Shown here: piece after piece, positions 6,992 through 21,839 of the stretch
Numbering within the stretch: position 1 is the first letter of the stretch
Layout of the letters: every line of letters begins with the position of its first letter
Assembly (NCBI GenBank): GCA_905479115.1
Contig: CAJQLF010000009.1
Span: forward strand, 1 to 64,000
DNA length: 64,000 bases
Reading direction: 5' to 3'
DNA from: an uncultured Flavobacteriales bacterium
GTDB lineage: Bacteria > Bacteroidota > Bacteroidia > Flavobacteriales_D > Sanyastnellaceae
Position numbers and translations under genes: made by a program
The notes under the pieces: generated by a model
What the model saw: the letters and a program-made list of their open reading frames with translations, nothing else
What the model was told of the DNA's origin: nothing
Database searches by the model: none

Positions 6992-7041
6992 ATCTGATCC
7001 AAGTTGGTCCGAGGCTAAATTGGTGTGACCTTTACCGACCA

Positions 7042-7716
7042 ATGAGCCGATCTTCCAATATGCCCCATCAACTGGACGATGAATTGCTTCAGTATTCTGT
7101 TCAAAACAGCACGAAAGAAGACGCTATCCTGTCAGCATTGCGCAAACGCACGTGGCAAAAAGTACTCACCCCCCAAATGCTCAGCGACCCCATTCAGGGA
7201 AAATTCCTCCAGAATTTGAGTCGCATGGTGCGTCCAAAACGCATTTTGGAATTGGGCACTTACACCGGATACTCGACGATCTGCTTGGCCTCCGGACTTG
7301 CGGCCGACGGGGTCATCGACACGGTAGAACCCAACGATGAACTGAATTCGATTCAGGAAGAGTTCTGGCAAGAAGCGGGGATCATCGAACGTGTAAATCG
7401 CTTCAACGCTGAAGCGCTGGAGGTACTGCCCAATCTCTCCGGACTTTATGACATTATATGGATTGACGCCGACAAACCGCGCACGCGATTGTATGCAGAT
7501 GCTTGCCTTCCTCTGTTGCGACCAGGTGGCTGGTTGCTCGTGGACAATGTTTTATGGTGGGGCAAAGTCCTTCCAAGCCATGCCGAAACAGATGCGACGG
7601 CAGAAATTATGAAGTCGACAGCTTCGTGGTTGGCTGGTCGAAGCGACGTCCGCACGACCTTACTCCCTATCCGAGATGGGATTTTGATGGTCGAAAAACT
7701 AGGCGTTACGGAATAA
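7042..7716 (+). CDS. O-methyltransferase family 3 protein
   Basis: A 224-aa SAM-dependent O-methyltransferase of the catechol/caffeoyl-CoA type. SAM motif I is LELGTYTGYST. The metal-binding aspartate motif is IDADK, followed by LLRPGGWLLVDNVLW, where the DN completes the divalent-metal site. Substrates of this family are catechols and other vicinal diols; the one used here is unknown. An in-frame TTG at 6988 overlaps the previous stop, but the ATG at 7042 fits the family's N-terminus better; ATG 7060 is a further option. It lies downstream of the cysteine-rich gene and converges on sucC. Confidence 0.9.
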   Translation: MSRSSNMPHQLDDELLQYSVQNSTKEDAILSALRKRTWQKVLTPQMLSDPIQGKFLQNLSRMVRPKRILELGTYTGYSTICLASGLAADGVIDTVEPNDELNSIQEEFWQEAGIIERVNRFNAEALEVLPNLSGLYDIIWIDADKPRTRLYADACLPLLRPGGWLLVDNVLWWGKVLPSHAETDATAEIMKSTASWLAGRSDVRTTLLPIRDGILMVEKLGVTE

Positions 7717-7734
7717 ACGAAGCGCTGAAGCTGT

Positions 7735-8949
7735 TTACTTGCTCACTACTTCGGCGACAGCTTCTGCAGCCTCCTTCAAGAGAATGACAGACTTCACCTC
7801 AAGGCCAGATTCGTCGATGAGCCGCTTGGCTTCTTCTGCATTGGTTCCTTGCAATCGCACGATAATGGGCACCTCGATGTTTCCCATGTTCCGGTAAGCA
7901 TCAACGACGCCTTGTGCCACTCGATCGCACCGGACGATACCGCCAAAAATGTTGACCAGAATGGCCTTCACTGCTGGGTCTTTGAGAATGATCCTGAACG
8001 CTTTTTCCACGCGAGCTGCATCGGCTGTTCCCCCGACATCCAAGAAATTCGCCGGCTCTCCTCCACTGAGCTTGATAATATCCATGGTCGCCATCGCCAA
8101 TCCCGCTCCGTTCACCATGCAACCGACATTGCCATCCAATTTCACATAATTCAACCCGGCTTCATCGGCCTCTACCTCCGTTGGATCTTCTTCAGAAGTA
8201 TCGCGCATTGCGGCATAATCCGAATGGCGGTAAAGCGCATTTTCATCTAACGAAACCTTCGAATCCACCGCAATGACGCGGTCATCTGCAGTCTTCAGGA
8301 CCGGATTGATTTCAAACATGGTCGCATCGCTTCCGACGTATGCATTGTATAACGACACAACAAACTTGGCCATTTCCTTGAATGCCTTTCCTGACAAACC
8401 TAAGTTGAAGGCAATTCTGCGGGCCTGAAACCCTTGCAGACCGACAGTTGGATCGATGGATTCCTTGAAAATTAATTCGGGTGTTTCTTCTGCAACGGCC
8501 TCAATATCCATTCCACCTTGCGGCGAGTACATAATAAGGTTGCAACCGTTTGCACGATCGAGCAACACACTCATGTAAATTTCTTTGGGCTCACTATCAC
8601 CTGGACCGTAAACATCCTCTGCAATTAAGACCTTGGAAACTTGCTTGCCTTGTGCACTCGTTTGAGCCGTAACCAAATGTCCGCCCAAAATGCCCTGTGC
8701 CTTACCCTTTACCTCATCCAATCCCTTGGCGAGAACCACTCCATGAGAACCCGTCTCTGTCACCGTGCCTTTGCCGCGACCTCCAGCGTGGATTTGCGCT
8801 TTCACCACAAACCAACCCGTTCCCGTCTCCTCCGCCAATTGCACTGCAACCTCGTGAGCTTGCTCAGGAGAATCTGCTACATATCCGTTTTGGATGGCGA
8901 CACCGAAACGCTTCAATATTGACTTCCCTTGGTACTCGTGAATGTTCAT
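7735..8949 (-). CDS. sucC: succinyl-CoA synthetase beta subunit
   Basis: A 404-aa beta subunit of succinate-CoA ligase, the TCA enzyme that makes ATP or GTP from succinyl-CoA. It opens with the family signature MNIHEYQGK and has an ATP-grasp domain ([30 protein letters not shown]). The C-terminal CoA-ligase domain contains [25 protein letters not shown] and [10 protein letters not shown]. The length is normal for the family. The alpha subunit (sucD) is not next to it, so the two are encoded apart in this genome. A perfect -7 box lies 29-36 nt upstream. Confidence 0.97.
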
Positions 8950-8977
8950 TTCAACAGATCATTTTCTAAATGCGGGG

Positions 8978-8985
8978 CAAAGGTA
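8978..8985 (-). promoter_or_regulatory. -7 box for sucC
   Basis: The minus strand reads TACCTTTG, a perfect TAnnTTTG box, leaving a leader of about 22 nt to the sucC ATG. No clear -33 TTG was identified. Confidence 0.55.
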
Positions 8986-9022
8986 GGGAACAGACGGTGC
9001 GATTCCTTTGTAGTTTGCATCC

Positions 9023-9691
9023 ATGAATGAAATCATGATTGAAGCACGGGGACTTACCAAATCCTTTGGAGATCTCGAGGTCCTTCGCGGCATTGATTTG
9101 GACATTCGCCGGAACGAAATAACAGCCATCACGGGTGCTTCTGGCGCTGGTAAAACAACCCTGCTCCAAATACTGGGCACTCTTCATTCACCGGACGCAG
9201 GCCAGCTCCGAATCGGGAATCAGCACATTGAATCGCTTAAAGGAAGCGAATTAGCGGCTTTTCGCAATCAGCGCATCGGCTTCATTTTTCAATTTCATCG
9301 ACTGCTCCCTGAATTTTCCGCCTTGGAAAATGTTTTAATGCCGGCCTGGATCTCCGGGCAAGATGGGAGCCTCGAAAAAGCGCGTGCTGAGCGCCTTCTC
9401 AAGGACCTCGGAATGGGAGACCGAATGCACCACGCCCCCAACAAACTCAGCGGCGGTGAGCAACAACGCGTGGCTGCTGCACGAGCACTCATGAATCAAC
9501 CTGACGTTGTCCTTGCCGATGAGCCCACCGGGAACTTGGACTCGGGCAATGCGGATTCCCTGTTCAATTTGTTCGAAGAATTGCGCGATCGGGAGGGGCA
9601 AACCTTCGTGGTGGTCACCCACAACAATGCCATGGCAAAGCGAGGAAACCGCACGCTTCATATGGCCGATGGTCAATTCGTGGCCTCGTAA
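9023..9691 (+). CDS. lolD: LolD-type ABC transporter ATPase
   Basis: A 222-aa ATPase of the LolD/MacB-type family, which powers extraction of lipoproteins from the inner membrane or related mechanotransmission exporters. Walker A is GASGAGKT (38-45), the Q-loop is in GFIFQFHRLLPEF, the signature is LSGGEQQR (142-149), and Walker B runs into DEPTGNLD (166-173). VTHNNAM holds the switch histidine. The permease partner (LolC/E-type) is not adjacent, so assignment to lipoprotein sorting rather than another MacB-like exporter rests on family resemblance. Met5 is an alternative start. Confidence 0.85.
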   Translation: MNEIMIEARGLTKSFGDLEVLRGIDLDIRRNEITAITGASGAGKTTLLQILGTLHSPDAGQLRIGNQHIESLKGSELAAFRNQRIGFIFQFHRLLPEFSALENVLMPAWISGQDGSLEKARAERLLKDLGMGDRMHHAPNKLSGGEQQRVAAARALMNQPDVVLADEPTGNLDSGNADSLFNLFEELRDREGQTFVVVTHNNAMAKRGNRTLHMADGQFVAS

Positions 9692-10251: not shown

Positions 10252-12636
10252 ATGAGCAGTACACCCATCCCCTACCACCGCATCAAGAAAGTCGCCGTCC
10301 TCGGATCTGGCGTAATGGGTTCACGCATTGCGTGTCACCTTGCCCAGACCGGCTCAGAAGTATTGCTGATGGACCTTCCTTCATCCGAAGGTCCTCGAAA
10401 TTCGATTGCAGACGGGCACCTCAAGACCGCTTTGAAGTCCAATCCGTCCCCCATTTACTCCAAACGCTTCGCGAAGCGGATCACAACGGGGAATTTTGAC
10501 GACGACCTCCCGAAGCTAGCTCAATGCGACTGGGTCATCGAGGTGATAGTAGAACGCTTGGATATTAAGCAGCAGCTCTTCGAACGGGTCGAAAAGCACC
10601 GGGCTCCAGGAACGCTGATAACATCAAACACTTCGGGCATCCCCATCGCCCAGCTCAGCGAAGGCCGCTCGGAGGATTTTCAAGCACACTTTTGCGGAAC
10701 GCATTTCTTCAATCCGCCACGCTACCTGCCCCTGCTGGAGGTCATCCCCGGACCGAAAACGCAAGAGGATGTCCTGGCCTTTTTTATGGACTACGGAGAG
10801 CGGATTCTTGGTAAACAAGCGGTGCTGTGCAAAGACACGCCCGCGTTTATCGCCAACCGGGTCGGCGTATTCGCCATTCAAGCGCTGTTTCATACAGTAA
10901 GCGAAATGGGATTGAGCGTCGAGGCCGTGGATAAGCTCACTGGACCGGTCATGGGCCGCCCGAAAAGCGCAACGTTTCGTACGTGCGACGTCGTGGGATT
11001 GGACACCTTGGTTCACGTCGCCAATGGCGTTGCGTCCAATTGCCCAGAGGATGAGCGGCAATCCGTTTTTGCCATTCCCAACTACGTGCAGCACTTGGTC
11101 GACAACAACATGCTGGGCTCTAAATCCGGAGCGGGATTCTACAAGAAGATCAAAAATGCCGAGGGCAAAAGTGAAATCTTGGCCCTTGATCTGAAGACAC
11201 TCGAATACCGAAGCAAAGAAAAAGTCAAATTCGCCACGCTTGATCAGGCCAAAGGAGTCGATAATTTAGCCAAACGAACACAGCTTCTTTTCAATGGAAA
11301 AGATGTAGCTGGAACGTTTTACCGATCCATCTTCGCTGATGTATTTGCTTACGTAGCCAATCGAATTCCCGAGATATCTGACGAACCTTACCGAATCGAT
11401 GACGCCTTGCGAGCGGGGTTTGGTTGGGAACTAGGAGCTTTTGAAAGTTGGGATGCTATTGGGTTTGAGGCAGGCTTGAAAGCCATTACCGACAAAGGCC
11501 TGACCGTGCCTGCCTGGATCACCTCCTTTCAAGCGGCTGGTCACACCGCGTTCTACCGCAACAGCAACGGTGTTCGCGAATGCTGGAATCCGACCACCGA
11601 ATCATTCGAGGCTTTGCCAGGGCAAGATTCACGCATTACACTGGCATGGCTTCCTGAATCTGCAACGGTTTGGTCCAATTCAGGGGTCACCCTCCAGGAC
11701 CTGGGAGACGGCATACTCAATGTAGCCTTTCACACCAAGATGAATTCCATTGGTTCAGAAGTTATTGAGGGGCTGAACAAAGCCGTTGATTTGGCAGAAA
11801 GCTCTTCCGATTGGAGAGGCATTGTCGTTTCAAATGAAGGCGCACAGTTCAGCGCTGGTGCCAATGTGGGCATGATCTTTATGTTGGCTGTCGAACAAGA
11901 ATGGGAGGAACTGGACCACGCAGTGCGCGTCTTCCAAACCACCATGATGCGCATGCGGTATTCTGGAATTCCAGTGGTAGCTGCACCGCATCAGCTGGCC
12001 TTAGGAGGAGGTTGTGAATTGTGTCTGCATGCGGATAAGGTCATTGCCCATGCCGAGACGTACATGGGACTCGTTGAATTTGGAATTGGCGTCATCCCGG
12101 CTGGTGGGGGAACCAAGGAATTCGTCCTCCGTTTGAACGATGAACTGCACGACGGCGACATGCGCATCAACCGTCTCCGCGACCGATTCTTGACCATTGG
12201 ACAAGCCAAAGTGGCCACCTCGGCGAACGAAGCGTTTGAATATGGCTACCTGCGGGAAGGAATCGACGAGGTGGTGGTAAACCGTCGAGATCAAATCGCG
12301 CGGGCCAAACGCGCGGCGGTTGAATTGGCAGAAGCAGGGTACACCCAACCCGTGCAGCGCAAAGACATCACGGTTGCAGGGCAAGAAGGTCTGGGCATCG
12401 TTTACGTGGGTGCGCACAGCATGAAGAGCGGAAACTACATATCAGAGCACGATCAACTCATTAGCGAAAAACTCGGATTTGTTATGTGCGGCGGCGATCT
12501 GAGCAGCCGAACAGACGTTTCCGAACAGTACTTGCTCGACTTGGAACGAGAAGCATTTGTCTCCCTTTGCATGCAACGTAAAACGCTCGAACGCATGCAA
12601 AGCCTGATTCAGAAGGGGAAAATCTTAAGAAACTAA
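10252..12636 (+). CDS. fadN: 3-hydroxyacyl-CoA dehydrogenase / enoyl-CoA hydratase
   Basis: A 794-aa bifunctional beta-oxidation enzyme carrying out hydration of enoyl-CoA and NAD-dependent oxidation of 3-hydroxyacyl-CoA. The order of domains is dehydrogenase first and hydratase last, as in Bacillus FadN and unlike E. coli FadB. Residues 14-330 hold the NAD-binding fold (GSGVMGS, 18-24), HFFNPPRYLPLLEVIPG and the FIANRVG helix. The crotonase domain occupies about residues 480-700, with FSAGAN and LALGGGCELCLHAD for the oxyanion hole and first glutamate, and VEFGIGVIPAGGG for the second. It is 4 nt after the marR gene and 4 nt before the thiolase. Confidence 0.95.
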   Translation: MSSTPIPYHRIKKVAVLGSGVMGSRIACHLAQTGSEVLLMDLPSSEGPRNSIADGHLKTALKSNPSPIYSKRFAKRITTGNFDDDLPKLAQCDWVIEVIVERLDIKQQLFERVEKHRAPGTLITSNTSGIPIAQLSEGRSEDFQAHFCGTHFFNPPRYLPLLEVIPGPKTQEDVLAFFMDYGERILGKQAVLCKDTPAFIANRVGVFAIQALFHTVSEMGLSVEAVDKLTGPVMGRPKSATFRTCDVVGLDTLVHVANGVASNCPEDERQSVFAIPNYVQHLVDNNMLGSKSGAGFYKKIKNAEGKSEILALDLKTLEYRSKEKVKFATLDQAKGVDNLAKRTQLLFNGKDVAGTFYRSIFADVFAYVANRIPEISDEPYRIDDALRAGFGWELGAFESWDAIGFEAGLKAITDKGLTVPAWITSFQAAGHTAFYRNSNGVRECWNPTTESFEALPGQDSRITLAWLPESATVWSNSGVTLQDLGDGILNVAFHTKMNSIGSEVIEGLNKAVDLAESSSDWRGIVVSNEGAQFSAGANVGMIFMLAVEQEWEELDHAVRVFQTTMMRMRYSGIPVVAAPHQLALGGGCELCLHADKVIAHAETYMGLVEFGIGVIPAGGGTKEFVLRLNDELHDGDMRINRLRDRFLTIGQAKVATSANEAFEYGYLREGIDEVVVNRRDQIARAKRAAVELAEAGYTQPVQRKDITVAGQEGLGIVYVGAHSMKSGNYISEHDQLISEKLGFVMCGGDLSSRTDVSEQYLLDLEREAFVSLCMQRKTLERMQSLIQKGKILRN

Positions 12637-12640
12637 CGCC

Positions 12641-13822
12641 ATGAATGCATACATCATAGGAGGGTACCGCTCACCGGTTGGTAAATCGGGCAAAGGAGCA
12701 TTCCGGTTCGTCCGGCCAGACGATCTCGGAGAGCAAGTCATCCGTCGGCTCTTGTCGGATTTCCCACAACTTGACAAAGAACGCATCGACGATGTGATCG
12801 TCGGAAACGCAACCCCCGAAGCCGAGCAAGGACTGAACATCGGTCGCATGGTCAGCCTCATGGGGTTGGACACCGACAAGGTTCCCGGCATGACCGTTAA
12901 TCGCTACTGCGCATCTGGACTAGAAACCATCGCCATTGCCTCCGCAAAAATTCATGCCGGGATGGCCGACTGCATTTTGGCAGGTGGGATTGAGACCATG
13001 TCTCCTATCCCATTTGGAGGATGGCGCATCGTGCCCAACGCTCGAATTGCTAAATCCAATCCCAATTGGTATTGGGGCATGGGACTCACGGCCGAGGCAG
13101 TCGCCAAAGATTTCAAGGTGTCGCGAGACGCCCAAGATGCATTCGCCTTCCACAGCCATCAAAAAGCAGCAGCGGCGATAGACGGTGGACGGTTTGCACC
13201 AGGCATCGCTCCCATCACCGTCAATGAAGTGTACCTCGACGAAAATGAGAAACGTCAAGAACGTCAGCACCTTGTGGATACCGATGAGGGGGTTCGCCGG
13301 GATACCACACCCGAGGGGCTAGCCCGGCTCAGACCCGTATTTGCACAAGGAGGAACGGTCACGGCGGGCAACAGTTCTCAAACCTCTGATGGGGCAGCAT
13401 TTGTTCTCGTTGTCTCCGAGCGCATGCTAAAGGAACTCAACGTTGAGCCCATTGCTCGATTGGCCAGCTTTCATGTGAGTGGTCTGGAACCGCGCATCAT
13501 GGGGGTGGGGCCCATTCACGCCGTACCTGAAGCGCTCAAAAAAGCTGGCCTCCGTGTCAGCGATATGGGCGCCATCGAACTCAATGAGGCATTCGCCTCT
13601 CAATCCGTCGCCGTAATGAATGAATTGGGGCTGGACCCCGATATCGTGAATCCCAATGGTGGAGCAATTGCCCTGGGCCATCCTTTGGGTTGTACAGGAG
13701 GCAAGCTCACCGTGCAGCTCTTGAATGAATTGAAGTTGCGCCAAGCCAAGTACGGCATGGTCACCATGTGCGTCGGAACAGGCCAAGGAGCCGCCGGCGT
13801 ATTCGAAATGTTGAACGCCTAA
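12641..13822 (+). CDS. fadA: acetyl-CoA C-acyltransferase (thiolase)
   Basis: A 393-aa thiolase that cleaves 3-ketoacyl-CoA to acetyl-CoA and a shortened acyl-CoA, the last step of each beta-oxidation round. The nucleophile is Cys90 in NRYCASGLE. The conserved ELNEAFA, GGAIALGHPLGCTGG (active-site His) and CVGTGQGAA (second catalytic Cys) are all present. Length is standard for a degradative thiolase. It lies between fadN and the acyl-CoA dehydrogenase with gaps of 4 and 12 nt, so all are one transcript. Confidence 0.96.
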   Translation: MNAYIIGGYRSPVGKSGKGAFRFVRPDDLGEQVIRRLLSDFPQLDKERIDDVIVGNATPEAEQGLNIGRMVSLMGLDTDKVPGMTVNRYCASGLETIAIASAKIHAGMADCILAGGIETMSPIPFGGWRIVPNARIAKSNPNWYWGMGLTAEAVAKDFKVSRDAQDAFAFHSHQKAAAAIDGGRFAPGIAPITVNEVYLDENEKRQERQHLVDTDEGVRRDTTPEGLARLRPVFAQGGTVTAGNSSQTSDGAAFVLVVSERMLKELNVEPIARLASFHVSGLEPRIMGVGPIHAVPEALKKAGLRVSDMGAIELNEAFASQSVAVMNELGLDPDIVNPNGGAIALGHPLGCTGGKLTVQLLNELKLRQAKYGMVTMCVGTGQGAAGVFEMLNA

Positions 13823-13834
13823 ACCAGTGAAGTA

Positions 13835-15625
13835 ATGTCAGACCAAAATGATGCGATCCGCGGTGGGGAATTTCTAATTCGACCAACCGAAGCCAGCGAC
13901 ATCTTTATCCCCGAAGAGTGGACGGAAGAACAGTTGATGATGAAACAAATGACGCTCGATTTTGTGGCGCAACGGATCATTCCTCAACTCGAGCAAATTG
14001 AAAACCAACAAGAAGGATTGGTACCGAGCCTTATGGAAGAAGCCGGTGAATTGGGATTGGTAGGCAGTTCCGTCCCAGAGGCCTATGGCGGGTTGGGCTT
14101 GGATTTCAAAACAACCATGCTAATTACCGAAGCCATCGGAGGTGCACATTCCTTCAGCGTCAGCTTCAGTGCGCATACCGGAATTGGGACGCTCCCCATC
14201 TTATACTACGGAAACGAAGAGCAGAAGCAGAAATGGATTCCTGGATTGGCTTCAGGTAAACTAAAAGGTTGCTATTGCTTGACAGAGCCGAGCGCCGGAT
14301 CAGACGCTAACAGTGGGAAAACGAAAGCGCACCTAACTGACGATGGCAAACATTACGTCATCAATGGCCAAAAGATGTGGATTACCAATGGCGGTTTTGC
14401 CGATGTCATGATCGTATTTGCCAAAATCGACGACGATGAAGATTTAACGGCGTTCATTGTTGACGGACATGCGGAAGGAATCACGAAGAATCCCGAAGAA
14501 AAGAAAATGGGAATCAAAGGCTCGTCCACCCGCCAAATCTTCTTCAATGACGTTCACGTTCCAGCTGAAAATTTGCTCTACAAGCGAGAACAAGGATTCA
14601 AGATCGCCGTCAATATCCTCAACATTGGTCGCATTAAACTCGGCGGTGCAGTGCTCGGCGCAGCGAAGGATGCCAGCACGGAATCAATTCATTTTGCCAA
14701 TGAGCGTGAGCAATTCGGGCGACCCATTTCGAAATACGGGGCGATTCGCTACAAACTTGCCGAAGGAGCCATTCGATTGTACACGTTGGAGTCGGCACTC
14801 TACCGAGCAACACAGAACATTGATGATGCCATCGCGGCCTTAAAAAGTGACGGCATGGAGCACGGAGAAGCAACCCTCAAGGGCATCGCTGATTTCGCTC
14901 CTGAATGCGCGATGATGAAAGTCCTCGGTTCTGAAGTGCTTGATTTTGTCGTCGATGAAGCTGTTCAGATTCATGGCGGTATGGGATACAGTGCGGAAAC
15001 CCGCGCTGAATTGGCTTATCGAGACGCGCGCATTAACCGCATTTTTGAGGGGACCAACGAAATCAACCGCATGCTCACGGTGGATATGATTTTGAAAAAG
15101 GCCATGAAAGGGGAAATGGACTTAATGACGCCCGCTATGGCAGTCGCCAACGAGCTGACCGGTGTTCCGGACTTCACCTCTCCTTCCTCCGATCCATTCG
15201 AACGTCAGTTAAGTTATGTGGCCAATATGAAAAAGGCCATTCTCATGGTGGCGGGTTCTGCCGCTCAGAAGCTCATGATGAGCCTCGGCAAGGAACAGGA
15301 AATCCTCATGAACATCGCCGACATGGCCATCTGGCTCTACACCATTGAATCTACCGTGCTTCGCGTGCAAAAATTAGCCCAACAGGCTGGCAACACAGAT
15401 GAACTGAGCATTCAAATGGCCATCATGCAAGTGTACACGTACGAGGCAAGCGAGTGGATTCACAGCGCTGGAAAAGAGGCACTGCTCTCGTTTGCGGAAG
15501 GGGACGAACTCAAGATGATGGTCATGGGCATGAAACGCTTCTGTAAAACCGAAGACTTCAACACAAAAGCTGCGAGGCAATTGATCGCCCAGCATTTAAT
15601 TGAGAAGAATGCCTATGCGCTCTAA
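13835..15625 (+). CDS. fadE: acyl-CoA dehydrogenase
   Basis: A 596-aa FAD-dependent acyl-CoA dehydrogenase, doing the first oxidation of beta-oxidation. Characteristic parts are YCLTEPSAGSDA, GQKMWITNG, EREQFGRPI, QIHGGMGYS and the catalytic base in IFEGTNEINR (Glu at about 405). The extra C-terminal domain of roughly 170 residues resembles that of very-long-chain enzymes and Bacillus FadE. Electrons would go to an electron-transfer flavoprotein encoded elsewhere. It is the last gene of the marR-fadN-fadA-fadE operon. Confidence 0.95.
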   Translation: MSDQNDAIRGGEFLIRPTEASDIFIPEEWTEEQLMMKQMTLDFVAQRIIPQLEQIENQQEGLVPSLMEEAGELGLVGSSVPEAYGGLGLDFKTTMLITEAIGGAHSFSVSFSAHTGIGTLPILYYGNEEQKQKWIPGLASGKLKGCYCLTEPSAGSDANSGKTKAHLTDDGKHYVINGQKMWITNGGFADVMIVFAKIDDDEDLTAFIVDGHAEGITKNPEEKKMGIKGSSTRQIFFNDVHVPAENLLYKREQGFKIAVNILNIGRIKLGGAVLGAAKDASTESIHFANEREQFGRPISKYGAIRYKLAEGAIRLYTLESALYRATQNIDDAIAALKSDGMEHGEATLKGIADFAPECAMMKVLGSEVLDFVVDEAVQIHGGMGYSAETRAELAYRDARINRIFEGTNEINRMLTVDMILKKAMKGEMDLMTPAMAVANELTGVPDFTSPSSDPFERQLSYVANMKKAILMVAGSAAQKLMMSLGKEQEILMNIADMAIWLYTIESTVLRVQKLAQQAGNTDELSIQMAIMQVYTYEASEWIHSAGKEALLSFAEGDELKMMVMGMKRFCKTEDFNTKAARQLIAQHLIEKNAYAL

Positions 15626-15709
15626 CGCGAACCGAGATGCGTTAAATCTTTGTTGAAATCCTCTACTTCCCAAACCGTTATTTCGACGTGGACAGGGTAA
15701 TTTTGAGGC

Positions 15710-16798
15710 ATGGCAAAAAAGAAGATTATGACCAAGGCTTCGGAGGCATTCCTCGAAGCGTACCTCAATAACGCAAGTCCAACCGGATTTGAAAGCAGTG
15801 GACAACAGCTTTGGTTGGATTACATCCGACCCTACATCGACGAGCACTTTGTAGACACCTATGGGACGGTCGTCGGCGTCATCAATCCTGACGCGCCTTA
15901 TAAAGTCGTAATCGAAGCGCATGCTGATGAAATCAGCTATTTCGTTCATTACATTACGTCCGATGGCTACATCTACCTGAAGCGCAATGGCGGAAGCGAC
16001 CATCAGATTGCACCTTCTAAACGCGTCGACATTCATACCCCGAAAGGCATTGTCAAAGGTGTCTTTGGTTGGCCGGCCATTCACACGCGAACCGCTGGAA
16101 AAGAGGAGGCACCGTCCATGAAAAATATTTTTCTCGACGTCGGTGCAAAGGACAAAGCGGAAGTCGAAAAAATGGGCATCCACGTCGGTTGTGTTGTGAC
16201 CTACGAAGACACCTTCATGGTGTTAAATAAAGATTGGTTCGTAGCAAGAGCACTGGACAATCGAGCCGGTGGATTCATGATTGCAGAGGTTGCTCGCCTG
16301 CTTCACGAGAGCAAAACCAAATTGCCGTTTGGCCTCTACATCACCAATTCCGTTCAGGAAGAAATCGGACTGCGCGGGGCCCAAATGATTGCCGAACGCA
16401 TCTCGCCGGATGTTGCCATTGTCACCGACGTCACCCACTGCACGCAAACGCCGATGATGAATAAAATCGAAAACGGCGATGTTGCAGCTGGCAAGGGGCC
16501 TGGAGTCACCTACGGACCTGCGGTTCAAAACAACTTGCTCCAGCGGATCATCGACACGGCTGACGCCGAAAAGATTCCGCTCCAACGCATGGCAGCGAGC
16601 CGTTTCACAGGAACCGACACCGACGCATTCGCTTACTCCAATAAAGGAGTTGCCAGTGCCCTCATCAGTCTTCCATTGCGCTACATGCACACGACCGTGG
16701 AGATGGTCCACCGAAATGATGTCGAAAATTGCATTCGATTAATCCTCGCCACGTTAAAGAAGATTCAACCCGGAGAGGACTTCAAGTACATCCATTAA
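15710..16798 (+). CDS. M42-family metallopeptidase
   Basis: A 362-aa cytosolic aminopeptidase of the M42 family (glutamyl aminopeptidase/cellulase-M type), usually a large hollow dodecamer that trims peptides. Two-metal ligands can be placed in VIEAHADEI (His, about 71), ARALDNRAGG (Asp), VQEEIGLRGA (catalytic and ligand Glu), VTDVTH (Asp) and the late RYMHTTVEMV (His). The gene follows the fad operon by 85 nt and may have its own promoter. It converges on the response-regulator gene; the two stop codons share TTAA, a 4-nt overlap at 16795-16798. Confidence 0.92.
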   Translation: MAKKKIMTKASEAFLEAYLNNASPTGFESSGQQLWLDYIRPYIDEHFVDTYGTVVGVINPDAPYKVVIEAHADEISYFVHYITSDGYIYLKRNGGSDHQIAPSKRVDIHTPKGIVKGVFGWPAIHTRTAGKEEAPSMKNIFLDVGAKDKAEVEKMGIHVGCVVTYEDTFMVLNKDWFVARALDNRAGGFMIAEVARLLHESKTKLPFGLYITNSVQEEIGLRGAQMIAERISPDVAIVTDVTHCTQTPMMNKIENGDVAAGKGPGVTYGPAVQNNLLQRIIDTADAEKIPLQRMAASRFTGTDTDAFAYSNKGVASALISLPLRYMHTTVEMVHRNDVENCIRLILATLKKIQPGEDFKYIH

Positions 16799-17334
16799 TT
16801 CGAATCCAACAGCTGGGTGATTTCGCGCGCTAAGCGAGCGATATCCTCCGTTTTTTCAGCATTTAATTCAACCTGACCTTCGGTAAGGCGCTGGATGCGG
16901 GTGGAGTGCAGACGGGCCTCGTTCATGCGCTGCATGAGCTTTGCACCTTCGCTCGCCATACCCTGCCGATGGTGGAATAAATCAGAAGCCTCTTGAACCA
17001 AAGCCTTGAGCTCTGATTCGTTCCATGGCTTGGAAATGTACTTATAGATCTGTCCCTTGTTGATCGCATCAATCACAGCATCGATGTCCGCGTGTCCCGT
17101 GAGTAACATGCGCACCGGATTCGGGTAGTCTGGCATGATCAGCTCAAAAAATTCTACACCGCTCAACTTGGGCATTTTTTGATCTGAAATAATCACCTCA
17201 ATAGGCTGCTCGCGCAAAATCCGCACTGCCTCCGTCGGTTCAGTGGTTACATGCACCTGAAAATCACGGCGAAACGCTGCGCGAAATGCGGTCAAGTTGT
17301 GGGCCTCGTCATCGAGGTAAAGCACATTGATCAT
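16795..17334 (-). CDS. single-domain response regulator with coiled tail
   Basis: A 179-aa response regulator. The receiver domain covers residues 1-120: acidic pair DDE (8-10), phosphorylatable Asp51 in IISDQKMP, Thr79 in LLTGH, and Lys102 in YISKPW. About 55 residues of mostly helical, charged sequence follow, with no DNA-binding or enzymatic output domain recognised. Output is therefore likely protein-protein, or the protein is a phosphate sink. It overlaps the end of the histidine-kinase gene by ATGA and is almost certainly its partner. It ends the four-gene operon that starts at 21278. Confidence 0.92.
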   Translation of the reverse strand: MINVLYLDDEAHNLTAFRAAFRRDFQVHVTTEPTEAVRILREQPIEVIISDQKMPKLSGVEFFELIMPDYPNPVRMLLTGHADIDAVIDAINKGQIYKYISKPWNESELKALVQEASDLFHHRQGMASEGAKLMQRMNEARLHSTRIQRLTEGQVELNAEKTEDIARLAREITQLLDSN

Positions 17335-19469
17335 AATGGAAATCGGATTATAAATTCAGAACCTAAGCCCTCCTCGGACTCGACTTCAACTTCTGCATTG
17401 TGATCCCGAAGAATGCCCATCACAATACTCAGCCCAAGACCTGTCCCCTCGCCCACCGGTTTTGTTGTAAAGAATGGATCAAAAATTTGGGACTTGACCC
17501 CTTCTGGCATTCCGACGCCGCTGTCCTTAATTCGCACCTCAATCCACGACTGACCAATGCTCTCCGTTAAGGCTGTTTGGATATAGACCTCGTTATCTTC
17601 GAACTCGCGCTCTAGCCCCTCCATGGATTGGGCTGCGTTGGTGATGATGTTCATGAACACCTGATTCAATCGGCCAGGCTGGCACGTGACCAAGGGCAAG
17701 TTATCCGCCAACGTGTATCGCACGGTGGCCACATCTTTCAAATTGCTGCGCAATACGATCAGCGTGGATTCGATCAGTTCATTCACCTGGGCCTGAATAA
17801 AATTATCCCCGTCCATGCGACTGAAGATCCTCAGCCCCCTCACAATTTCACTCGTCCGCATGGTTCCGTCTTCGATTCCTTTGAGCAGTTCGTCAATCTC
17901 GCGCTGGGTAAAATCAATATCCAGTTTGGCAAGCTTGGACTTTAAGGCCTCGACTTTCGACCCAATGTCCTCCATTGCTGGGTCGAGCGTTTTCACCGCG
18001 TCTACCACCTCATTTAGATCTTCGAAATCTCGCCGCAACGATTGAGCGCTGGATGACACAAAATTAATGGGGTTATTTAGTTCATGGGCGATGCCCGCAG
18101 TGAGCTGACCGATGGATGCTAATTTTTCGCTTTGAACCAATTGCTGCTGAGCCGACTGCAACTCTTCTAACGTCGCGCGCATGGTGGAATTCATTTCCTC
18201 CAAATCCGCTGTTCGGCTTTTCACGCGATCTTCCAATACGTTATTTTGTTCGCGCACCAAGCGCTCATTCAGCTGCAAGGAGCGCATCTGTTCTTCCCTC
18301 GCAATTGCGCTTTCCTTCTTCAATTGATTGATTCGGCTGGCCAAGGCAAGACTCAAAACGACCATTTCAATGGCGCTGCCCAACGGGAGAGCAAAAAACG
18401 TCCATGCGTTGTAAGGGATGATACCGGAATCCTTCAAAACAAACACCAGCACGGCGATGATGAAAATGGTAAACGCCAGGAGAAAATATTTAGCCGGAGC
18501 GTATCCCTTGCGCATCGTTATGATGGATCCGGGGATGCAAAAGAAAATCGCTGCAGCGCAGAAGTTAATCACATTGTAACTCCAGATGAGCTGACCAAAA
18601 ATTGCCAGAACAAATGCAATGAGGTAAATGACAAAGTAGAAATTGAGGAGTTTATGCAGCCAAGGCACGTACCGACTTAGCCGCAAAAAATTCTGCACAA
18701 AGACAATGGTTGTCAGGCCACTGAACACCCCAAAGAAGTGAGTTATTCGGTGGTTTAACCAGGGCAACGATTGGATTTGTAAGTAAGAAGTATAGCCGTT
18801 CAATACCAGCTGCGTCCCACCGATCATGAGAATGAAGAGCGAATATTCGAGGTAACTGCGGTCACCAACGCTGAAGAACAAAAACAGATTGTACAACAGC
18901 ATGACGAGAATCACACCAAAATAGGCTGCAAAGAGAACGTCCCGTTGATGCGAATCCCCAATGATCTCTCGCGGACCCGCAATGCGCATGGGCAGCAGGA
19001 GAGGTTTTGACGACTTCAATCGAAAGAGCACCGTCAGTTCATCGCATTCCGTCAAGGGAATTGGAAAGGTCGGATAGGTTCCCATGGTGGACTCCACATG
19101 GGATGAAGCGATCACGCCTCGCTCGAACGAGGCCGTGACTTTACCGTCGCAAATCATATACCCAGTCAACTCATCAATCCCTGCATTCTGGATTTCGAGG
19201 AGCATTCCATTTTCTGTCTTGGAATCCAAAATCACCCGAATCCATTGGACATCATCGCTTAACCCCAAATTGGGAACACGGTCAGTATGGGCACTCCAAT
19301 TTTCTGAAAGCGCCACGGCTTCTACACCCATTAATGCAGGCGTCAGAGATTGATCCAAAGATTCAACGCGGGTTCCAATGAATTCTTGAGCTCCAACCGT
19401 GGAAATCATCGCTAAAAACACCCCGATCCAAGCGGTGCGGAGTCCGCGTATTCGAATGGAACACCCCAT
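17331..19469 (-). CDS. 7TM-DISM sensor histidine kinase
   Basis: A 712-aa membrane kinase. It has a signal peptide (to about residue 27, ending VGAQ), then a periplasmic 7TMR-DISMED2-type beta domain (about 30-175) that in this family is thought to bind carbohydrates or other small ligands. Seven transmembrane helices follow at about 180-390, then a coiled coil, HisKA with the phospho-accepting His in [10 protein letters not shown] (about residue 462) and a HATPase with NxxxNA (ITNAAQ), DSGVGMP and GTGLGL. The start ATG at 19469 overlaps the acyltransferase stop as TGATG; a GTG one codon earlier is possible. It is coupled to the response regulator downstream and two enzyme-like genes upstream. 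Confidence 0.92.
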
Positions 19470-20230
19470 CACACGTCTAGCCTAAACTTAAGTTTCAATT
19501 CGCCCTTCGGGCCATGAACAGAATGAGACATCCCCTCCGGATCTTGCCAAATCCCCTCCAACAATTCTCTCACACGGTCTTCGACCGCATCAAGTTGATC
19601 GGGAAAGGTGTATCGGGCAATGGTAGCGCGAAGCTTGGGCGTTGGGTAGGTGAAAAAACCATCTTCTCCAATGCCCTCCTCGGTATAAAATGCCAACGGT
19701 CGCTGCATGCGTCGGGTGACCGGCGAAGTAAGCGCAAACAAATGCCGACCTCCTATCATGGTCAAGGTGGCCATGGCCGCTTGTATCAGAAACGTCGCCT
19801 CCACCCCCATACCAGCCAACTCGATGCTATTCCACATGCCTCCCAGTTCAAATGCACCTTCTTCCACGTACGGCGCCATGTGCTCTGACAAGCGGGGATC
19901 TTGGCTTCCAATGGCCTTCATCAGCGGAAGTTCACTCACAGTTTTGGCACCGTGCATCCGGGCGCCACCCAACACGCGTTCTCCTCGTCCGTCAATGCCT
20001 GAGCCCAGCCCTACAGCAGCGATCACAATAATCTGAGGGTTTCCAATCCAATCGCGGTTGAAGGTGGTCAACTGCTTGATCCCATACGCTTGCAATACGG
20101 CTTGATGACCATCCACCAGCTCATGGCACATGTCAGGATGCCGATCCGCACGAAACACACGAACCTCCGCCTCTGATATGCGTTCTGCTCGGCGGGTACG
20201 GTCAATTGACGGATTCAATGAGCTGCTCAT
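19469..20230 (-). CDS. GNAT-like acyltransferase (FeeM/autoinducer-synthase-like)
   Basis: A 253-aa protein tentatively placed in the GNAT fold, closest in pattern to N-acyl amino acid synthases and acyl-homoserine-lactone synthases. The supporting pattern is an N-terminal MCHELVDGHQAVLQAYGI, a strand with GGARMH, then FELGGMWNS, GMGVEATFLIQAAMATLTMIGGRHLFAL and a closing RRMQRPLAFY. No experimentally known relative could be named from sequence alone. The ATG at 20230 is preferred; one at 20254 is also in frame. Either start overlaps the upstream ThiF gene (29 or 53 nt), so translation is probably coupled. It may modify a product activated by that ThiF protein; this is inference. Confidence 0.6.
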   Translation of the reverse strand: MSSSLNPSIDRTRRAERISEAEVRVFRADRHPDMCHELVDGHQAVLQAYGIKQLTTFNRDWIGNPQIIVIAAVGLGSGIDGRGERVLGGARMHGAKTVSELPLMKAIGSQDPRLSEHMAPYVEEGAFELGGMWNSIELAGMGVEATFLIQAAMATLTMIGGRHLFALTSPVTRRMQRPLAFYTEEGIGEDGFFTYPTPKLRATIARYTFPDQLDAVEDRVRELLEGIWQDPEGMSHSVHGPKGELKLKFRLDV

Positions 20231-21278
20231 TCCATTCCAAATAATGGCGAGCATCCGAAACGGAGTCGCCGAGAAAAATTTTACGAATCACTTGGGCCGC
20301 ATGCGCCCCACCTCCTGCAACATCTGAATACAATTGCGGCCAGCCCACGAGGGTCTCACCCACCTGCTGCAAACTCTCAACGCCCCGTGCAGATGCTTCT
20401 GCAACATCTATGAAGGCGTCGAAATAAGCCGGCGTCCATTCTGCTGCGCTGCGCATTTCTTGCAGCAAATCATCCGAAATCCGGCCATGCAGAAAGGCCT
20501 GACCCGACTGGTCATAACGCTCGATATCGAGCATCCCACGGTCGGAAGTCTCCATGATGAGAGGAATCCCCGCTTCTCGTGCGTGCCAGCGCAAGTTTGC
20601 TTTTGCTTGAACTTGATCGCAGGCGTCGACAACGCAATCCACACCTTCAAAAAATTCCTTCGCGTTGTCAGAGGTAAACCCCTCAGAAACCAATTCGACC
20701 TCAAAAAAAGGATCAACCTCTGCAATGGCCCTCGCTACAGCGACTGTTTTTGGAATACCTAAATGATGGACACCTGTTTGAATCCGATTCAAATTGGACA
20801 ATTCTAAGGTGTCAAAATCTGCAAGTTTCAGACGCCCGCAAATTCGCTCCATTGCCAATGTCACAGCCAGTGAACTTCCAACGGAAAGCCCGACAATCCC
20901 AACCGTTTTCCCCCCTAATTCGTCTTGCTCTTCCTGATTGATCTTGTTGCGATTTCGGTTGGTACGCACTTCAATGAATGCCGATTCTGGCAACAACCGC
21001 ACCCACGTTGCCCGCCAAGGGAACCAGGCCCACACGCCATAAGCGTCCCATCCGTCCGGACCGATTTCCCGGCGGATTTCCGATGCTAATTTTTCAGGCT
21101 GCGCTTTCAACTTAGGCTGCCGTATGATCAGCAATTCAGCCACTTGATCTTCCAAAGAATCCACAACATGGGCATTCAACGTTGACTGCTTTCGTTCTTG
21201 AAAGAGCTTACGCCTCGGTGAAGAATCCAGCCGGAAAACTTCAGGGTGTGTTTCGTATGGTTTGGGTGCAGAACTCAT
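20202..21278 (-). CDS. ThiF/E1-like adenylyltransferase (Rv1355c-like)
   Basis: A 358-aa protein with an E1/ThiF/MoeB-type fold, which activates carboxylates with ATP. The nucleotide loop is GIVGLSVGSS (127-136), followed by DFDTLELSNLNR (154-165) with the conserved Asp and Arg, and VVDACDQVQAK (217-226). The N-terminal 120 residues and the block METSDRGMLDIERYD (242-256) resemble the front half of mycobacterial Rv1355c-type proteins, where a nitroreductase-like domain follows; here that second half is absent and a separate acyltransferase gene follows instead. No CxxC zinc pair is obvious. The start ATG 21278 was chosen since residues before it look unstructured. First gene of a coupled operon with a two-component system. 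Confidence 0.82.
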   Translation of the reverse strand: MSSAPKPYETHPEVFRLDSSPRRKLFQERKQSTLNAHVVDSLEDQVAELLIIRQPKLKAQPEKLASEIRREIGPDGWDAYGVWAWFPWRATWVRLLPESAFIEVRTNRNRNKINQEEQDELGGKTVGIVGLSVGSSLAVTLAMERICGRLKLADFDTLELSNLNRIQTGVHHLGIPKTVAVARAIAEVDPFFEVELVSEGFTSDNAKEFFEGVDCVVDACDQVQAKANLRWHAREAGIPLIMETSDRGMLDIERYDQSGQAFLHGRISDDLLQEMRSAAEWTPAYFDAFIDVAEASARGVESLQQVGETLVGWPQLYSDVAGGGAHAAQVIRKIFLGDSVSDARHYLEWNEQLIESVN

Positions 21279-21416
21279 CACGTTGAAAGGCTCAATTTCG
21301 CGGGAATCCCGCGTTCCCTGACTGCAAGCTTCAGATGTTTTGAACACGCGTAATGTGAGAATCTGCAACCTTTATAGCCATTTTACGTATTCCAGAAGGC
21401 ATCATGACATGTACGA

Positions 21417-21839
21417 ATGACTCCTTTTAATTCAACACCTCTCATTTATATCGCTTATGCGAATGCATCTGAAGCTCAAAGTCTCATGGAGCGCATCCAA
21501 GATTTTTCAGAGCCCCGTCTGATTGATGCTTCCGACTTAAGTAATTCCAACTTCATGCAATCCATCGCACAACACCAAACCTGTTTGTTGGTTTTGGATG
21601 AAGCATGTGCTGCGCTCAAATCTTTGAAGTCCTTTGGAAAGGAAGCAGCTGAAAGGCATGAGTTCTTTCGTTGCCTGGTGATCGGGGACTCGAACATCGA
21701 GCAATGGCCGCAAGGCACGATTCAAATGAACACGCATACGCTCTCTACGACGATTATTGATCGGTTGCGAAACGAATCAAATGTACTTCGCATGATGAGC
21801 AGCCGTGTGCGCCATGTGCGAAGATTGCAGAACCGATAA
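21417..21839 (+). CDS. hypothetical protein, possible alpha/beta (TIR/receiver-like) fold
   Basis: A 140-aa protein, not recognised. Its start (LIYIAYANASEAQSLMERI) and the segment QTCLLVLDEACAAL look like alternating strands and helices of a flavodoxin-like, TIR or receiver fold. The conserved catalytic Glu of TIR NADases and the phosphorylatable Asp of receivers could not be placed. The C-terminus is basic (RVRHVRRLQNR). It is transcribed away from the ThiF operon and converges on the DUF4924-type gene. It may share a regulatory region with the ThiF operon, which makes a linked role possible but unproven. Confidence 0.6.
   Translation: MTPFNSTPLIYIAYANASEAQSLMERIQDFSEPRLIDASDLSNSNFMQSIAQHQTCLLVLDEACAALKSLKSFGKEAAERHEFFRCLVIGDSNIEQWPQGTIQMNTHTLSTTIIDRLRNESNVLRMMSSRVRHVRRLQNR

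Follow-up and report, generated by a model that had tools for sequence, protein, structure and literature searches.

A conserved Bacteroidota gene set uniting a predicted oxazolone-forming enzyme pair with a 7TMR-DISM sensor kinase

Why should a carboxylate-activating enzyme and an acyltransferase be encoded in one overlapping operon with a sensor kinase and its response regulator? This arrangement occurs in a marine Bacteroidota genome, that of an uncultured Flavobacteriales bacterium (GCA_905479115.1; 2.27 Mb, 99.5%-complete), within positions 1-64,000 of contig CAJQLF010000009.1, the 64,000-nucleotide (nt) stretch analysed here and referred to as the window. Four genes form the set, hereafter the cassette, and their neighbourhood is conserved far beyond chance. 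We tentatively read the operon, with confidence just short of even, as a dedicated N-acyl amino acid/azlactone signalling module, the product of which is sensed by its own kinase. The four genes were assigned from Pfam, NCBIfam and alignments (E1), AlphaFold and Foldseek (acyltransferase), Pfam (kinase), and Pfam together with relatives (regulator), as follows:

20202..21278, minus strand: E1/ThiF-like adenylyltransferase of the stand-alone oxazolone-cyclase type, 358 amino acids (aa)
19469..20230, minus strand: GNAT-fold acyltransferase (AT) of LuxI/FeeM type, predicted amino-acid N-acyltransferase, 253 aa
17331..19469, minus strand: 7TMR-DISM histidine kinase, 712 aa
16795..17334, minus strand: response regulator, a receiver with a tail of about 60 residues and no output domain

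Gene order and conservation of the set

The positions of the open reading frames (ORFs) confirmed the four overlapping minus-strand genes described in the initial annotation, with overlaps of 29, 1 and 4 nt. The E1 gene starts at 21278 and the AT gene at 20230, giving an N-terminus, MSSSLNPS, that is common to the genus relatives; this genus-wide start fixes the AT gene and hence an E1-AT overlap of 29 nt. The range of 29-53 nt proposed initially thus holds at its lower end, while the 53-nt alternative was dropped as it needs an upstream ATG that relatives do not conserve. The two other junctions stand as annotated, TGATG at 19467-19471 joining the AT stop to the kinase start and ATGA at 17331-17334 joining the kinase stop to the regulator start. 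The ratios of nonsynonymous to synonymous substitution (dN/dS), computed against the closest relative, were approximately 0.04 for E1, 0.02 for AT, 0.06 for the kinase and 0.02 for the regulator, indicating strong purifying selection on all cassette genes.

Three samples of genomic neighbourhoods were compared. When 100 relatives were searched for E1, AT and the kinase, E1 and AT were found in exactly the same 60, and the kinase adjoined them in 58 of these, including one broken assembly (G041) in which it lies beside AT; of the remaining two, G077 has a contig that breaks off before this can be judged, and G096 is a true exception. Among the 40 relatives without E1, a strong kinase match was absent from 38 and present in two, in one case at a contig edge. 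A second sample comprised 72 Bacteroidota loci from named genomes, picked by E1 alone and with enough flanking DNA, of which 72 carry AT, 71 the kinase, 66 the regulator in cis, 55 a divergent receiver and 27 a desaturase; four E1 loci from outside the Bacteroidota have no such kinase. Finally, among 118 evenly drawn Bacteroidota genomes, eight carry E1, and E1, AT, kinase and regulator occur together in all eight. The linkage spans Flavobacteriales, Sphingobacteriales, Cytophagales and Chitinophagales and survives rearrangements of gene order, the position of AT changing about five times on the E1 tree, and the four-gene set is ancient. Cultured carriers include Sphingobacterium, Algoriphagus and Chitinophaga. 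The genes thus proved to be regular rather than rare neighbours (71/72 and 8/8 loci), and the initial view that the four belong together withstood this test.

The enzyme pair and the missing desaturase

The E1 protein matched the Pfam ThiF family (2e-22), and its top NCBIfam match was the 'Rv1355c family' NF005901 (1.6e-107), at 360 bits against a cut-off of 476 and over the ThiF half only. It shares 38-39% identity with actinobacterial Rv1355c-family proteins, as well as their ATP-site residues, which are invariant in alignments with cassette and actinobacterial relatives and include the C-D motif Cys220-Asp221; the alpha-phosphate Asp was assigned via the family model and the C-D motif, the numbering of TrzS not being directly aligned. 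These matches support the initial placement in an E1-like carboxylate-activating family, and assign E1 to the oxazolone-synthetase family (TrzS/OxzB, Rv1355c), in which it would catalyse an ATP-dependent cyclisation. Rv1355c is TrzS, an oxazolone synthetase with proven reactions, its ThiF half using ATP to close the ring of an N-acyl amino acid and its flavin half introducing the desaturation, and the adjoining Rv1356c is TrzA, an N-acyltransferase (PMC12856293); in the TyzABC system of M. tuberculosis, the same chemistry is performed by three separate proteins (PMC10404671). Because TrzAS and TyzABC work in this way, E1 together with an acyltransferase constitutes a known biosynthetic pair, a connection that the initial annotation did not make.

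No Pfam, NCBIfam or PDB match was obtained for AT by sequence or profile search. Modelled with AlphaFold from 74 natural sequences, AT gave a confident structure, with a predicted local distance difference test score (pLDDT) of 89.5, and the top PDB matches by Foldseek were the acyl-homoserine-lactone (AHL) synthase BjaI (1.4e-7) and the N-acyl amino acid synthase FeeM (2.1e-7). The GNAT fold, on which the initial annotation had staked its claim beforehand, is accepted because the model resembles FeeM and the AHL synthases, and AT is accordingly predicted, from its modelled fold, to be an amino-acid N-acyltransferase. A Rhodococcus gene beside an Rv1355c-family gene weakly matched the Bacteroidota AT profile (20.6 bits, E value 6e-8 in a six-protein search). 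Separately, in two Brevibacillus loci (L099 and L136, approximately 7000-9080), close E1 homologues are preceded by a protein of 283-297 aa without a Pfam match, which carries an EFVRFSFHP/EFSRFAYHP motif that looks LuxI-like by eye; topoisomerase-like genes adjoin there and the cassette kinase is absent.

The window E1 stops after its ThiF half, with no fused or adjoining flavin-dependent nitroreductase-type desaturase. A desaturase acting in trans was considered and rejected, as a whole-genome profile search of the window genome and 18 further desaturase-free cassette genomes gave no desaturase match in any of the 19, while all three control genomes were positive; one 32-residue sliver matched in G034 is not a desaturase, and none of the three ordinary nitroreductases of the window genome fits the desaturase profile. 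In many relatives, E1 is fused to a nitroreductase-type desaturase and followed by the same AT, kinase and regulator. The suggestion that the nitroreductase domain of Rv1355c is replaced here by the acyltransferase therefore fails, since fused relatives have both and Rv1355c itself has an AT gene, Rv1356c, next to it (PMC12856293); the window lineage just lacks the nitroreductase. The desaturase was gained or lost repeatedly, with about ten label changes on the E1 tree, only two of them forced by well-supported branches. Given these changes and the occurrence of the kinase in 71 but of the desaturase in 27 of the 72 loci, the kinase linkage is more constant than that of the desaturase.

The sensor kinase, the receivers and the divergent gene

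The kinase comprises a periplasmic DISMED2 domain (48-163), a 7TM domain (177-379), HisKA (from 454) and HATPase (598-712), all four above the curated cut-offs, and the window genome has no other 7TMR-DISM protein. The cassette kinases form one subfamily, in which two non-cassette paralogs are included. No other part of the cassette changes as fast as their sensor domain, which has a mean pairwise identity of 21%. In one genome without E1 or AT (G087, locus L203, 9976-13396), two cassette-type 7TM-DISM kinases adjoin each other.

The regulator was initially described as lacking a DNA-binding output. This is correct for the window, where Pfam found no HisKA/HATPase C-terminal to the receiver, but the description needs widening, as the counterpart in many relatives is a receiver-HisKA-HATPase protein, a phosphorelay intermediate, often followed by a lone receiver of 133 aa. 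Because this regulator carries a second kinase module and is followed by a lone receiver, the cassette of many relatives has a phosphorelay layout, one that is reduced in the window lineage, which has no desaturase, second kinase module or terminal lone receiver. Some genera have an intact terminal lone receiver and others a degenerate-looking one (L056, 11669-12079; L046, 1534-1905), and the receivers of the cassette, terminal and divergent, look to be in stepwise decay.

Upstream of the operon lie a divergent fifth gene, identified from synteny, AlphaFold and Foldseek, and a conserved intergenic repeat:

21417..21839, plus strand: pseudo-receiver, 140 aa
21336..21346, minus strand: inverted repeat TGTTCAAAACA (TGTTYAAAACA), in the middle of the region between E1 and the divergent gene

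The fifth gene is conserved at 32-100% in the window genus (g1) and a sister genus (g9), with a dN/dS of 0.13. At the same position, relatives encode a canonical receiver or a degenerate but recognisably homologous one. Comparison of the window protein with canonical receivers gave no significant profile similarity, and its receiver homology thus rests on synteny and fold: the AlphaFold model (pLDDT 86.6) has the receiver fold order, and Foldseek matched it to CpaE-type pseudo-receivers and receivers. Neither this gene nor the receiver-kinase form of the regulator in relatives was mentioned in the initial annotation. The TGTTYAAAACA repeat was found in 18 of 23 distinct loci, nearly all from the window genus and its closest sister genus, at 56-74 nt upstream of E1, and has seven exact copies in the whole window genome; a conserved GTTGC stretch is located about 19-20 nt upstream of it within the intergenic region (21279-21416). 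We regard the repeat as a candidate promoter/operator element. A perfect palindrome just upstream of E1, CGCGGGATTCCCGCG (21299-21313), is absent from relatives and was dropped.

On its other side (10252-16798), the operon adjoins convergent genes of beta-oxidation type (3-hydroxyacyl-CoA dehydrogenase/hydratase, thiolase and acyl-CoA dehydrogenase) and an M42 peptidase-like gene, all named by eye from their translations. Several relatives have ORFs whose lengths equal those of the M42 peptidase and acyl-CoA genes downstream, and these neighbours possibly represent an acyl-CoA link or plain synteny.

Proposed function, alternatives and known systems

In the proposed signalling module, AT would N-acylate an amino acid, with acyl-CoA or acyl-ACP as the fatty acyl donor; this step is suggested by the modelled fold and family of AT. 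E1 would then adenylate the carboxylate of the N-acyl amino acid using ATP and close the acyl-oxazolone (azlactone), as its family and conserved residues suggest. The product may be saturated in the window lineage because the desaturase is missing both in cis and in trans; a saturated cyclic intermediate is known to form without desaturase activity (R540A or low O2; PMC12856293). The 7TM-DISM kinase, co-transcribed with the two enzymes, would bind this product or its hydrolysed form at the periplasmic domain and phosphorylate the receiver protein, which may act by contacting a partner. For many relatives, this partner would be the fused second kinase module together with the downstream lone receiver, i.e. 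a phosphorelay. We infer the substrate, the oxazolone product and the downstream target. Sensing of the product by the kinase is suggested by genetic linkage, a synthase gene being conserved beside a putative receptor gene, as in autoinducer systems (71/72 and 8/8 loci).

Several observations weigh against this signalling module. The ligand of the kinase is presumed from linkage, and co-divergence of AT and sensor beyond that of E1 and kinase domain was weak in a mirror-distance test (partial r 0.22). E1 and AT occur without the kinase in one Saprospiraceae locus (L124) and in the relative G096, G087 has cassette-type kinases but no E1, and the gene set includes no exporter and no DNA-binding output. 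Moreover, the cyclic intermediate was undetectable in cells with TyzA and TyzB of M. tuberculosis but without TyzC (PMC12856293), so that a saturated azlactone may be too short-lived for a signal.

A different division of roles, which we consider distinctly less probable, is that the kinase senses an outside cue, such as a sugar or the envelope state, and switches lipid synthesis, the lipid being an effector or envelope component rather than the ligand. The rapid change of the sensor domain favours this, as do the finding that tryptazolones are mostly cell-associated rather than in the medium (PMC12856293) and the report that SagS, recovered in a literature search for 7TMR-DISM, responds to glucose-6-phosphate (PMC8544897). 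Nonetheless, the regulator has no DNA-binding domain for direct switching of the operon, and linkage of one kind of kinase through rearrangements across orders is less expected for changing cues. It is unlikely, though worth weighing, that without a desaturase no free oxazolone is made, the product being a plain N-acyl amino acid or an activated acyl donor to a lipid, peptide or protein. All 19 such genomes lack the desaturase, oxazolones readily undergo hydrolysis and alcoholysis (PMC12856293), and thalassotalic/kyonggic acid clusters with ThiF genes yield open N-acyl tyrosines only (PMC12479983). Yet the stand-alone E1 forms retain residues that are invariant in the nitroreductase-fused forms, among them the C-D, HG and WPQ motifs; since both forms keep these residues and sit with the same kinase, a shared product class is suggested, and the cassette has no conserved enzyme that would serve as a separate acceptor.

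That E1 and AT instead modify a signalling protein, in a ubiquitin-like or lipidation step on the kinase or regulator, seems very improbable: E1 enzymes elsewhere activate protein C-termini, as is established for the family, and the coupling to two signalling proteins is tight, but no ubiquitin-like protein or E2 partner is found among the cassette genes, and the nearest characterised relatives have small molecules or tRNA as substrates. A chance or hitch-hiking neighbourhood without functional link is already refuted in practice. Adjacency within one genus can be simple synteny, and the recurring downstream ORFs would fit such a view; against it stand the linkage across four orders with rearranged gene order and the finding that 38 of the 40 relatives without E1 lack a strong kinase match.

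Beyond the window, it is possible, though we hold it with somewhat less than even confidence, that the cassette represents a widespread Bacteroidota signalling system in which an azlactone, or its open form, made by the E1-like cyclase and the LuxI/FeeM-fold AT, is an autoinducer perceived through the 7TM-DISM kinase and a phosphorelay. To our knowledge, little is known of small-molecule cell-cell signalling in Bacteroidota, and the ligands of 7TM-DISM receptors are mostly unknown. If correct, the proposal would provide a function for oxazolone lipids, whose physiological role has been called a major unresolved question (PMC12856293). As the enzyme pair is accompanied across Bacteroidota more consistently by the kinase than by the desaturase, the signalling role is directly testable.

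Both the enzyme pair and this type of kinase are already known, whereas their conserved union, with or without the desaturase, was not found described: the TrzAS (PMC12856293) and TyzABC (PMC10404671) papers make no mention of a union with a kinase, and a search of the non-subscription literature found no paper joining oxazolones with histidine kinases or 7TMR-DISM. The window pair resembles TrzAS of Mycobacterium/Rhodococcus in its ThiF/E1 family, adjoining GNAT-type N-acyltransferase and conserved ATP-site Asp, but TrzS has a fused flavin-dependent desaturase that the window E1 lacks, and genes for cyclic di-GMP (c-di-GMP) adjoin TrzAS where a 7TM-DISM two-component system adjoins the window pair (PMC12856293). 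On a Rhodococcus plasmid (L165, 3696-7944), an Rv1355c-family gene has a GGDEF gene and a divergent TrzA-like gene as neighbours, comparable to the c-di-GMP neighbours in M. tuberculosis. TyzB is a stand-alone ThiF cyclase accompanied by an N-acyltransferase, as in the window; TyzABC differs in having a desaturase and in that no kinase was reported (PMC10404671). In OxzAB from Pseudoalteromonas rubra, as described by citing papers, OxzB is a fused ThiF-nitroreductase, like that of other Bacteroidota cassettes, and has the desaturase that the window lacks. FeeM and the LuxI-type AHL synthases share the predicted fold of AT, which differs in having no detectable sequence family membership. In CqsA-CqsS of Vibrio and LqsA-LqsS-LqsR of Legionella, a small-molecule synthase adjoins its own sensor kinase, and the Lqs system has a regulator without a DNA-binding domain. 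The likeness of the cassette to both lies in gene layout; the synthase chemistry is unrelated and the receptor is different. Finally, the window kinase shares DISMED2, 7TM, HisKA and HATPase domains with 7TMR-DISM kinases of the RetS/SagS type, and differs from them in being tied to a biosynthetic pair.

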